Assembly (NCBI GenBank): GCA_017795045.1
Contig: CP051244.1
Location: forward strand, 957,481 to 1,021,480
Reading direction: 5' to 3'
Length of the DNA stretch: 64,000 nucleotides
Origin: Allomuricauda sp.
GTDB taxonomy: Bacteria; Bacteroidota; Bacteroidia; Flavobacteriales; Flavobacteriaceae
Numbering within the stretch: the first letter of the stretch is position 1; each line of letters starts with the position of its first letter. Below are positions 29,306 to 33,628 of this stretch, one piece after another. Position numbers and translations under genes: made by a program. Under the pieces are notes generated by a model, which saw nothing but the letters and a program-made list of their open reading frames with translations, was not told the origin of the DNA and ran no database searches.

Positions 29306-30469
29306 ATGGGCGAAGCATTTGAGAATATTCTTATTTACTTTTCAAAATCATTGATGGGTAAAGTAAATGAAGAGGATATCTTATGGGATTTGGCCAAAAA
29401 CTGTATTGCCAAACTGGGCTTTGTGGACTGTGTGGTCTACCTCGTGGACCATAAAAACAATCTATTGGTACAAAAGGCCGCCTATGGGCCTAAAAATCCA
29501 AAAGACCGAAAATTATACAAGCCCGTTGAGATAAATATCGGGGATGGCATCACCGGATATGTGGCCCTAAGTGGACAGGCGGAAATCATCAACGACACCT
29601 CAAAAGATGTCAGGTATATAGAGGACGATGCCTTACGGCTTTCCGAAATCTGTGTGCCCATTGTATATGAAGACACCATTTACGGGGTTATTGATTGTGA
29701 ACATCCCCAGGCCAATTTTTTTACTGCCCATCATTTAAAAATGCTTTCGGCCATAGCATCGATCTGTGCCATAAAAATTAAAAGTGTCCGGGACAATTTG
29801 GCCTTGATGGCTGAAAAGGACCGACTACTGGAAATAAAGGAGGAAATGTTGGAGCTGAAATTAAAAACCTTGAACTCCCAACTGAACCCTCATTTTGTAT
29901 TCAATGCACTCAACTCCATCCAATACTACATCACCACCGAAAAAAAGAAGTTGGCCTTGGAATACCTGTCCACCTTCAGCAAACTAGTCCGGTTCTATTT
30001 AAATCAATTGGAGCAGGATACTGTATCCCTCAAGGAAGAAATTGAAATGCTGAATGCATTCCTGAAACTCCAAAAGCTACGTTATGATGATTCCTTTGAT
30101 TATGACATTTCCATTTCAAAAGGTGAGGGCCAAGTGGAAGAGGCCATTGTTCCCTCTTTGGTGATACAGACTTTCTTTGAGAACCTCATTGAAGATGCCA
30201 TGGGCAATCAACAGAAAAGTCAATATTTCATGATTTCTTTTGTTGTTTCCGAGGCTTCCGTGACCATGGAGGTCCAGCATAAAAGTCCAAATATGGACCC
30301 TTTTATGGAAAACCATCCAGAGCACCGGGAAAGTATTCTCCAATGGGAAGACCAGATCAACCTCCTAAACTCGATAAAAAATTATTCGATCGTTTATACG
30401 ATCACGAATGCCCCTGATCAAAAAGGGCACCTCAGAAATATCACTTTGAAACTTCCTAATCTTGCTTAA
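29306..30469 (+). CDS. GAF-domain LytS-type sensor kinase with degenerate ATP-binding domain
   Basis: A 387-residue soluble protein. Residues about 10-165 form a GAF domain, a linker coiled coil follows, and from about 190 the sequence matches the LytS/YehU His_kinase domain: LNSQLNPHFVFNALNSIQYY, then LSTFSKLVRFYLNQ. The ATP-binding part is poor: the N-box that should read ENAIxHG is ENLIEDAM, and the DTGxG loop is absent. It may be unable to hydrolyse ATP and serve as a signalling scaffold. No response regulator is adjacent. Preceded by a terminator; convergent with the PlsC gene. Confidence 0.8.
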   Translation: MGEAFENILIYFSKSLMGKVNEEDILWDLAKNCIAKLGFVDCVVYLVDHKNNLLVQKAAYGPKNPKDRKLYKPVEINIGDGITGYVALSGQAEIINDTSKDVRYIEDDALRLSEICVPIVYEDTIYGVIDCEHPQANFFTAHHLKMLSAIASICAIKIKSVRDNLALMAEKDRLLEIKEEMLELKLKTLNSQLNPHFVFNALNSIQYYITTEKKKLALEYLSTFSKLVRFYLNQLEQDTVSLKEEIEMLNAFLKLQKLRYDDSFDYDISISKGEGQVEEAIVPSLVIQTFFENLIEDAMGNQQKSQYFMISFVVSEASVTMEVQHKSPNMDPFMENHPEHRESILQWEDQINLLNSIKNYSIVYTITNAPDQKGHLRNITLKLPNLA

Positions 30470-31212
30470 GTCCCAATGTCCTGCATCAATTCTTTGAGCA
30501 TGACTTCCCTTACCTCTTCCCTTAGGGTTGATTTATCCTCTTCCGCCAATATCCCCGTTTCAAAAAAGCGGTGCACTTTGGCCCGTACCGGTCCTGGCGA
30601 ACCACTTAAAAACGTGAAGGAAAAACGTTTTTTGTTGTCATAAAATGTAATGGGCACTATAGGAATCTTATGGGCTATGGCCATTTTAAAGGCCCCGTCC
30701 TTGAATTCGTCCAGAACAACATGCTCCTCCGGTACTCCCCCCTCAGGAAATATGCAAATGCTCAACCCTTGGTCCAATCTTCGCTGCGCCCGTCTATATA
30801 CTCCGGTCCTGCTCCTCACATCCTCTCGATCTACCATAATACAGACTCTTTTATAGAAAAACCCAAAAACTGGAATCTTGACCAGTTCCTTTTTACCTAC
30901 GAACACGAATGGGTTTTTGCTCACCACCAACATCAGCATAATGTCCAACATACTGGCATGGTTGGGCACCAGCATATAACTCTTCCCTCTTTCCATTTCC
31001 TGTTCCCGGATAATTTTTGGGAAACATCCCATACCGTACAGAATGGGCTTTGCCCATAAATTTTTGGCCATCCAAAAAAATTGGGGATAGGTCCTTTCAG
31101 AAATCGTGGCCAACAGCAAAAAGGGAGAAAAAACAAGAATGGGAACGGCCACCAGCACGTAAAACCAAATCCTAAAAATTGTATGACCTATGTTTTTAAA
31201 AAAAAGAGCCAT
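30466..31212 (-). CDS. plsC: 1-acyl-sn-glycerol-3-phosphate acyltransferase (PlsC family)
   Basis: Acylates lysophosphatidic acid to phosphatidic acid at the inner membrane. The catalytic NHxxxxD motif is NHASMLD (about residue 80), the substrate motif is FPEGG (about 150), and an N-terminal hydrophobic helix anchors the protein. The 248 residues are usual. It lies between two LytS-type kinase genes on the opposite strand and overlaps the end of the first by four bases. Ornithine- or other lipid-specific PlsC paralogues exist, so the substrate is not certain. Confidence 0.9.
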   Translation of the reverse strand: MALFFKNIGHTIFRIWFYVLVAVPILVFSPFLLLATISERTYPQFFWMAKNLWAKPILYGMGCFPKIIREQEMERGKSYMLVPNHASMLDIMLMLVVSKNPFVFVGKKELVKIPVFGFFYKRVCIMVDREDVRSRTGVYRRAQRRLDQGLSICIFPEGGVPEEHVVLDEFKDGAFKMAIAHKIPIVPITFYDNKKRFSFTFLSGSPGPVRAKVHRFFETGILAEEDKSTLREEVREVMLKELMQDIGT

Positions 31213-31432
31213 GTATTTAATATATAACCTTTAATGCGACCAAATTTTGTTAAAAATAGTTAGATGAAAACTGTAAGCACCATTACCAAATCGATAAAAA
31301 TTCTTATTTGCCTTGTATCCATTTTCTTTCCTAAAGGTATTGTTTTCATAAAGCCCTCAATACTAATCATTTAAATGGCTATCTTAAGGTTTAGAAGGGA
31401 CCTCGACATCTAATCTAACGTTAAAAAAATAA

Positions 31433-33280
31433 ATGAACCATTGGCTTTCTTTTTTCATTATTGTTTTTGGCTGGGGCTCTACGCTTCATGCAAATGTGCA
31501 AGAAGATAGGAAAATTCCCTTTGAGGTGTTCAAAGACAACCTGAAAGAGGATTCCATTGATAACGTGCCCATTGGAGGAAATTTTAAACCTTCCTCTTCC
31601 TTTACGGAGAGAACCTCTCCAGATGAATTTTATTGGATTCTGCTTGACTTTACAGGTTTCATGGACTCGTTTAGTGAAAATGACAGCTTGTATTTAAAGA
31701 TGAACACCTTTGATCATGGCAGTTTATATTACTGGAAAGCTAACCATGTTACTAAAAAGACCATAGGCTATTTTGACAAGGGCTCAGAAAGTGAAAAAAT
31801 ACCTTTTTAAAATTATTATTCCGAAGTTAAACTGGATGCCGATGGTTTAATCGACAACAGATACCTGTATATAAGGGCAAAGCGCATCACCTTTTACGAA
31901 AGCATACAGAATTGGGAGTTTAGCCTTCTCGTAAGGTCTAGCAAAACAAACTATAACCTTGACGATTTAAAAAGACTATGGCCTTATTTTGGTTTTACCG
32001 GCCTATGTCTTGTTATTTGGTTATCCACACTTACCTTTTACTTCTATCTCCGAAGACCGGAATTTCTTTTTTATTCCACCTACATCCTGATTCTTTATTT
32101 TTACGTTTGTGGTGACATCCTCAACATTTACGATTCCATTTTTAGTGAGAACCATTTGTTGCAGCACTGGATCTCCCAGAGTGTGATACAATTGGCCAAT
32201 GTTTGCTACGGTTTCTTTTTTATATACTATCTGGGGACCAAAAAAGATTATCCCAAGATCCATTCCCTGATGTACATTATCATGTCGTTGATTTTTGTGC
32301 CAATACTATTGATCGTGGTCCTGTATCTCTTTAACTACATGGATGGCTTGATCTTTATCAACGCCTATTTTATGAAGGCTGTTTTTGCCTTATCTGCCTT
32401 AGGCTTGGTTTATATCATTTTCAACGCAAAAAATGCCCAGGCCTATTTTGTTCTGCCAGCTTCGTTCTCCTTTCTCATATCATATATGTTACATGTATAT
32501 TTTGCAGACCCCAATGATGGGTTGCTTTTGAACAGTAGATATTACCTATTGATAGGCTGTTCTTTTGAAATATTGATCTTTAGTGTTGGCTTAAACTACA
32601 AGGTGCATTTGGAGTTTAGGAGGAATTTGGCACTTCAACAAGATGCCCTCACTGAAAAAACCAAGGCCCTTAGGGCGCAAATCAATCCGCACTTTATCTT
32701 TAACGCCCTGAATTCACTTCAAAACCTGATTATAAAAAACCATAAGATTTCCGCCCTAAAATACTTGTCCAATTTTAGCCGTTTGGTACGGAATGTCTTG
32801 GAAAGTTCTTTTGAGTCCAATGCAACCTTGGAAATGGAGATGAACATGCTCAACGATTATCTGGAACTGGAATCCTTACGGTTTGACAATGCTTTTTCTT
32901 ACGAGATAAATTGCAAAACAGACATAGATACGGCTTCCATTGAAATCCCATTCATGATTTGCCAACCCTTTGCCGAAAATGCCATAATACATGGATTGTT
33001 GCCAAAGCAGGATGGCGAAAAAAAACTGACCATAGACTTCAATGTGGACGGCAACTTATTGATTTGTACCATAGATGATACCGGAGTGGGAAGGCAGGCA
33101 ACAGAGGATAATGGCCCTTGGCAACAAAAAAAGAAAAAGTCAAGAGGTATGCAGGTAAGTAAGCTCCGACTAGATTCCAGTGGAAAAACATCCAATAATT
33201 ATGAAATAATCGACAAAAAGGATTCCAACGGAAATCCTATGGGCACCAAAGTGATTTTAAAACTGGTCGTTGAGGTTTAA
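31433..33280 (+). pseudogene. 7TM LytS-type sensor histidine kinase interrupted by an in-frame stop
   Basis: The frame starts at the ATG at 31433 with a signal peptide (MNHWLSFFIIVFGWGSTLHA). It stops at TAA 31808-31810 after 125 codons, then stays open in the same frame with no other stop to 33280. Read through, it gives about 615 codons: an extracytoplasmic sensing domain, a hydrophobic region of about seven helices (about 32000-32600), and a LytS/YehU kinase with INPHFIFNALNSLQ, the N-box ENAIIHG and DDTGVGR. A single C-to-T change (CAA to TAA) would explain it. The downstream part alone could only start at TTG or mid-domain. Recent inactivation or a sequencing error are both possible. Confidence 0.8.
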
Positions 33281-33385
33281 TCACAATGCTTACAAACAGA
33301 CCCAATCTTTCATAAAAATAAAGGCCTGCCACAATAGTGGATTTTTTGAATATCTTTATAGGACTAACCGTTAAAACTTGTAACA

Positions 33386-33628
33386 ATGGGATTACTTTAT
33401 GCATTATTGATTGGAGCACTTGCAGGCTGGCTAGCCGGAAAAATCATGAAAGGAGGCGGCTTTGGTGTTTTGTTGAACATTATTCTTGGTATTGTGGGCG
33501 GTATTGTGGGCAACTGGCTTTTTGGCACTTTGGGCATCCACATAGGCTCTGGGGTCATTGGTGATTTGCTTACCGGCGTCATTGGAGCGGTAGTACTTCT
33601 TTTTGTGGCCAGCCTATTTAAGAAGTAG
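33386..33628 (+). CDS. GlsB/YeaQ/YmgE-family stress response membrane protein
   Basis: An 80-residue inner-membrane protein of the family once called transglycosylase-associated. The sequence AGWLAGKIMKGGGFGVLLNI and GIVGGIVGNWLFGTLGI are the signature: a glycine-rich set of three helices. In other bacteria these are small general-stress proteins with no known activity. It has its own intrinsic terminator 22 bases downstream. Confidence 0.9.
   Translation: MGLLYALLIGALAGWLAGKIMKGGGFGVLLNIILGIVGGIVGNWLFGTLGIHIGSGVIGDLLTGVIGAVVLLFVASLFKK

Follow-up and report, generated by a model that had tools for sequence, protein, structure and literature searches.

A probable, very recent nonsense pseudogene of a LytS-type 7TMR-DISM sensor kinase in Allomuricauda, a genus with scattered and broken copies of the same kinase

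RetS, together with GacS, is an example of a kinase that controls another kinase. BtsS/BtsR of Escherichia coli is presented in PMC10653868 as a LytS-type 7TM histidine kinase with a LytTR regulator, and truncation appears in PMC9241588 as a common mode of bacterial evolution.

The DNA analyzed here, called the window throughout, is a stretch of 64,000 nucleotides from an Allomuricauda genome (G000), covering positions 957481-1021480 of its single 3,755,467-base contig (completeness 92.5). It contains a kinase gene interrupted by a stop codon, which resembles BtsS/BtsR in combining a PF06580 kinase with a seven-helix membrane sensor, and a LytTR regulator adjoins the kinase in outgroups. Unlike BtsS/BtsR, the membrane domain is of the 7TMR-DISM type with approximately 180 residues ahead of it, the kinase is broken by a stop, no regulator lies alongside it in the window genome, and a GAF pseudokinase is found as an additional neighbour. 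The locus is similar to recent single-nonsense pseudogenes in that one substitution truncates the gene, close relatives have whole orthologues and no decay has yet followed; it differs from them in that a single genus has shed the same kinase family repeatedly, along with its regulator. The GAF neighbour, which retains a His box and has no ATP-lid motif, is reminiscent of pseudo-histidine-kinases that work with a catalytic partner, except that it is a soluble GAF sensor conserved in many genomes without the 7TM partner. Among the matches listed in our literature search, judged by their titles, none dealt with such a system in Bacteroidetes, Flavobacteriaceae or Muricauda.

A sensor kinase gene with one in-frame stop

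Translation of 31433-33280 gives an ATG at 31433, 125 residues, a TAA at 31808-31810, a further 489 residues in the same frame and a closing TAA at 33278-33280. An earlier note on this DNA, made from the letters alone, had given these coordinates and the same frame on both sides of the internal TAA, and translation bears it out. The features of the region are as follows.

29306..30469, + strand: GAF-domain PF06580 protein with a His box and no D.G.G, an apparently conserved pseudokinase; it adjoins the kinase and regulator in outgroups
30466..31212, - strand: putative acyltransferase-like gene; it flanks the kinase site in nearly all relatives
31433..31810, + strand: first portion of the kinase gene, coding for 125 residues with a signal-peptide-like start and most of the pre-helix domain, ended by TAA 31808-31810
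31808..31810, + strand: in-frame TAA, opposite GAA in relatives G030 and Allomuricauda ochracea
31811..33280, + strand: remainder of the kinase gene, an open frame of 489 residues plus TAA that has retained purifying selection
31988..32596, + strand: 7TMR-DISM_7TM domain (PF07695), a Pfam match whose converted coordinates were checked
32156..33280, + strand: longest post-stop ORF from a usual start (TTG, codon 242), without the first two membrane-helix-like peaks
32660..32893, + strand: His_kinase domain (PF06580), a Pfam match, with the His codon at 32690-32692
32966..33157, + strand: ATP-binding motifs read in frame, namely the N box (32966-32995), G1 (33074-33091) and G2 (33140-33157)
33386..33628, + strand: 80-residue membrane protein, presumably YeaQ/GlsB-like, at the right flank of the kinase

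The post-stop half matches PF07695 (E 1.1e-11, 45.5 bits against a cut-off of 29), a family also matched in the orthologue of G030, and PF06580 (E 1.5e-20, 73.7 bits against a cut-off of 25.2). The kinase motifs are all in frame: the His box QINPHFIFNALNSLQ, the N box PFAENAIIHG and the G boxes DDTGVG and SRGMQV. No family scored above the cut-off in a Pfam search of the 125-residue 5' part, which is 94% identical to G030 over its 125 residues, and no Pfam match to an extracellular DISMED domain was obtained for the region ahead of the helices, in the window or in G030. The gene is thus a LytS-type 7TMR-DISM sensor histidine kinase with one in-frame stop, and the earlier reading of a single 7TM-type sensor kinase carrying His, N and G motifs is confirmed by both Pfam and the in-frame motifs.

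Origin, age and reality of the stop codon

The nearest relative compared, G030, belongs to the same genus and has a fragmented genome (71% complete). Its orthologue lies in the same place as one unbroken 615-residue frame and aligns end to end with the window gene at 92% amino acid and 91% nucleotide identity. Because this single frame runs across the junction, a chance juxtaposition of two pieces can be dismissed; the earlier claim of one gene cut by one clean in-frame stop holds. The codon opposite the TAA is GAA in both G030 and A. ochracea and a threonine codon in A. taeanensis, and the frame is uninterrupted here in all 11 usable relatives (row L006, read on the wrong strand, was left out). 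A G-to-T transversion from an ancestral GAA gives the simplest history and is the likely change, as the codons of the relatives suggest. The C-to-T change proposed earlier would need a CAA ancestor and was rejected, since the relatives carry GAA. A conserved TAA, which the earlier note had named as the sign of regulated or split translation, is likewise not what the 11 relatives display.

We also examined selection on the post-stop half by polarising the differences between the window and G030 with G076. After the stop, 42 synonymous and 14 nonsynonymous changes fall on the window branch (omega 0.088, one-sided 95% upper bound 0.150), compared with 36 and 19 on the sister branch (omega 0.139; window versus sister, Fisher p 0.30). 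Under stricter polarising, which required two outgroups to agree, the counts were 16 and 5 for the window versus 16 and 10 for the sister. No relaxation after the lesion was detected on the window branch (omega 0.088 versus 0.139, p 0.30), as would be expected of a very young one, and if a constraint of approximately 0.09 ended with the stop, the broken state would fill roughly the last tenth or less of that branch. Since the post-stop half still evolves like a constrained gene (omega 0.088), the stop is read as very recent, in agreement with the earlier note. This lack of relaxation is equally compatible with a very young mutation, with a polymorphism and with a base-call error.

Our preferred explanation, to which we assign a probability of roughly 75%, is a genuine and very recent nonsense pseudogene of this sensor kinase. 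The TAA would then be a real change rather than a base-call error, and the interrupted gene would probably give no working product. Three observations count against it: the lack of relaxation would be equally expected from an error or from a gene still in use, the regulator is present without any kinase of this family in 16 of 53 regulator-positive genomes, and the completeness of G000 is only 92.5.

Within this explanation, and compatible with it, the change may be real and yet unfixed, either a polymorphism of the strain or a product of selection in culture, where sensor genes are often lost. We regard this special case as possible and somewhat doubtful. It agrees with the absence of decay after the stop and meets no direct counter-evidence, and the independent losses in other species indicate that culture is not needed to account for such a lesion.

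A base-call or assembly error, under which the genome would have a sense codon here and an unbroken kinase, is rather improbable in our judgement. It would be consistent with the absence of relaxation past the stop, with the position of the TAA codon between a T tract and an A tract, and with an assembly of completeness 92.5 in which no tRNA-Thr was seen. Against it, the difference from GAA is a substitution and not an error of run length, both frames agree, and the loss or breakage of the kinase in many relatives makes a loss plausible a priori. Further evidence comes from a comparison of 333 kb of the contig, the window included, with 340 kb of G031, in which ORF pairs were counted if they had a nearby match with at least 60% identity over 80% of the length. 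Seven of 229 G031 ORFs were flagged as broken in the window genome, and the reverse test (window genome ORFs against G031) gave 10 of 232 as raw flags. In six of the seven (B79, B80, B81, B113, B164 and B254), the break lies upstream of the likely gene start; the seventh (B12), a 162-residue ORF that starts with TTG and is of uncertain coding status, differs in frame. No clear frame or stop error inside a gene was found in the 333 kb compared with G031, which also argues against an error at the TAA. Because all seven flags fall upstream of gene starts or in B12, the assembly around the window is not full of errors. A generally error-ridden assembly was thus rejected, on this 333 kb sample only.

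It is very unlikely that readthrough, suppression or reinitiation still yields a working kinase. Although the post-stop half is under constraint, the stop is present in none of the 11 usable relatives, so nothing points to a conserved mechanism. Past the stop, the earliest of the usual start codons (ATG, GTG or TTG) in frame is the TTG at 32156 (codon 242), inside the membrane domain and beyond the first two membrane-helix-like peaks, and we found no evidence that the ORF at 32156..33280 is used. Moreover, none of the 38 tRNA loci scanned, in a possibly incomplete scan that scored 150 of 217 first-look candidates, has a stop-reading anticodon, so the suppression that the earlier note had envisaged finds no carrier there; this absence weighs little, given that only 150 of the 217 candidates were scored and that tRNA-Thr was also unseen. 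As a separate observation, no tRNA-Thr occurs among the candidates from the whole G000 contig (completeness 92.5), which may reflect either a search miss or a missing piece of the assembly. Finally, two separate genes, one for a secreted 125-residue protein and one for a shorter kinase, are scarcely credible: both pieces do have open frames, but every whole relative encodes one protein across the junction, close to which the second piece offers no usual start codon.

The kinase, its regulator and its GAF neighbour in relatives

Gene order was read at five other loci (L034, L036, L037, L040 and L042), where the domains were confirmed by Pfam. The GAF protein, the 7TM kinase and a LytTR regulator lie side by side at L037 and L040. 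At L036, a 219-residue ORF ahead of the kinase and regulator corresponds to the His-box half of the GAF protein only; the kinase and regulator occur together at L042, and L034 has neither neighbour. No LytTR response regulator stands beside the kinase in the window; one is present in outgroups L036, L037, L040 and L042. The window genome nevertheless has a whole orthologue of the regulator at 628937-629680 (G000:C1:628937 onward; L321:6938-7687). The surrounding 12 kb that were read contain no kinase match, and G031 is alike in this respect. Among the 20 stretches read around regulators, a full-length kinase adjoins the regulator in G005, G063, G093 and G072, a shorter kinase match lies beside one of the two regulator copies of G003, and only C-terminal fragments are found in G034, G083 and G076; the remaining 12 of 20, those of the window genome and G031 included, have no kinase. 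A search of the window genome with two different queries found no second kinase of the family at E 1e-52. The interrupted kinase of the window probably served the LytTR regulator at 628937-629680.

A table of kinase and regulator, typed from the search results, covers 71 genomes. Of 53 regulator-positive genomes (counting G033 and G068, with matches that start only at residues 34 and 37, as well as G003, whose best regulator copy holds one TAA), 35 have an intact kinase, two have only a broken one and 16 have none; the two are the window genome and G018, the latter scored as broken only, although the TAG in it takes no more than some 17 to 20 residues off the end. The corresponding numbers for 18 regulator-negative genomes, including the incomplete G090 (79%) and G030 (71%), are three, three and 12. 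An intact kinase is associated with the regulator (Fisher p 0.0003 over 71 genomes, with shared ancestry ignored and with the distant kinase of G071, 35%, in the table). As 16 of the 53 regulator-positive genomes have no kinase of the family, the pairing is not obligate, and the three kinase-positive genomes without a regulator also speak against strict pairing. In G084 (L340, G084:C1:1437000-1447500; L171), we observed a frame change in the kinase and an incomplete regulator with two TAA codons, and no GAF gene was found.

The kinase locus was also mapped from recA to trpS in 70 loci, comprising 69 genus genomes and Flagellimonas olearia; G014, with no match to the acyltransferase gene, is not among them. 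The 7TM kinase occupies one of three places, or two at once, or is absent. It is present in 21 of the 70 loci as 23 copies, 6 of them broken: G093, G084 and G001 have frame changes, G059 has three stops, G065 is in four pieces and G023 retains a 50-residue remnant. In the kinase tree, from which the G023 remnant and nine of the 11 "elsewhere" rows were left out as too short, the copies with the acyltransferase gene on one side and the YeaQ-like or trpS gene on the other (window, G030, G076, G063 and G093) form one clade (100/99), and the broken copy of G001 is sister to the whole copy in G005. The species tree was built without seven loci lacking one of three genes, G030 among them. The placement of broken and whole copies in the kinase tree indicates that breakage happened several times. 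No kinase lies between the acyltransferase and YeaQ genes in the close relatives G031 and F. olearia; because F. olearia carries a 7TM kinase of 40% identity ahead of its GAF gene (L039:4587-6476) and none at the window position, the kinase has been either replaced or moved. The content of the acyltransferase-trpS interval (30466-33628) varies among close species, with the kinase and the YeaQ-like gene each present or absent.

The GAF neighbour had been regarded as degenerate, and its proximity as a sign that this signalling branch is being lost. Recurrent loss of the kinase in the genus supports the idea of loss in part, but the GAF neighbour does not stand as a sign of decay, as the motif loss is old and common to all 52 intact genus copies. 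The His box PHxxFN is kept in 52 of 52 and D.G.G is found in none, whereas the 7TM kinase copies at the locus, among them the post-stop half of the window gene, have D.G.G in 19 of 19 cases. The outgroup copies (L036, L037 and L040) likewise have the His box but no G1 pattern. A decaying gene was rejected on these motif counts and on a dN/dS of 0.06 to 0.09 among the window, G030, G031 and F. olearia. The GAF neighbour looks like a conserved pseudokinase, its motifs suggesting that kinase activity is absent. A fold model of the protein (mean pLDDT 82.6, pTM 0.51) matched GAF domains first; the kinase domain of GanS came 41st and 48th, and these matches add little. The GAF gene is kept in many genomes that have no 7TM kinase, and each of the three broken GAF genes belongs to a regulator-negative genome.

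A proposed history of the sensor and its meaning

The pseudogene reading implies that a nonsense substitution in an ancestral GAA codon very recently inactivated the sensor kinase. Translation would end after 125 residues, ahead of the first membrane helix, so that no sensor kinase would be made. An older system would have consisted of the GAF pseudokinase, the 7TM kinase and the LytTR regulator, as they still lie side by side in some other Flavobacteriaceae, and would since have become scattered and repeatedly lost in the genus. In the window genome, the GAF pseudokinase is intact, as is the regulator at its separate chromosomal site, and since no kinase adjoins the regulator there, the stop would remove the only family member found. 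The lesion is most likely one case among several in which the genus has independently lost this sensor.

A broader and more tentative proposal, which we hold as a possibility well short of even odds, is that the Flavobacteriaceae have a three-part sensor made up of a soluble GAF pseudokinase (His box kept, ATP lid lost), a 7TM LytS-type kinase and a LytTR regulator; that the genus repeatedly discards the catalytic kinase, often keeping the pseudokinase and regulator; and that the window captures the rewiring just after this step. If that is true, the discarding of the kinase while its two partners are often kept would mean that the pseudokinase is phosphorylated by other kinases, or signals without phosphorylation.

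A single nonsense change in a sensor kinase is ordinary in kind, and its value lies in the context of genus-wide kinase erosion around a conserved pseudokinase. The kinase, its likely regulator and its GAF partner have been lost or broken many times in this genus, beside species that keep all three. The genus would thus lend itself to asking which component of a signalling system is the first to be lost, and what function a conserved pseudokinase has after the loss of its catalytic partner.
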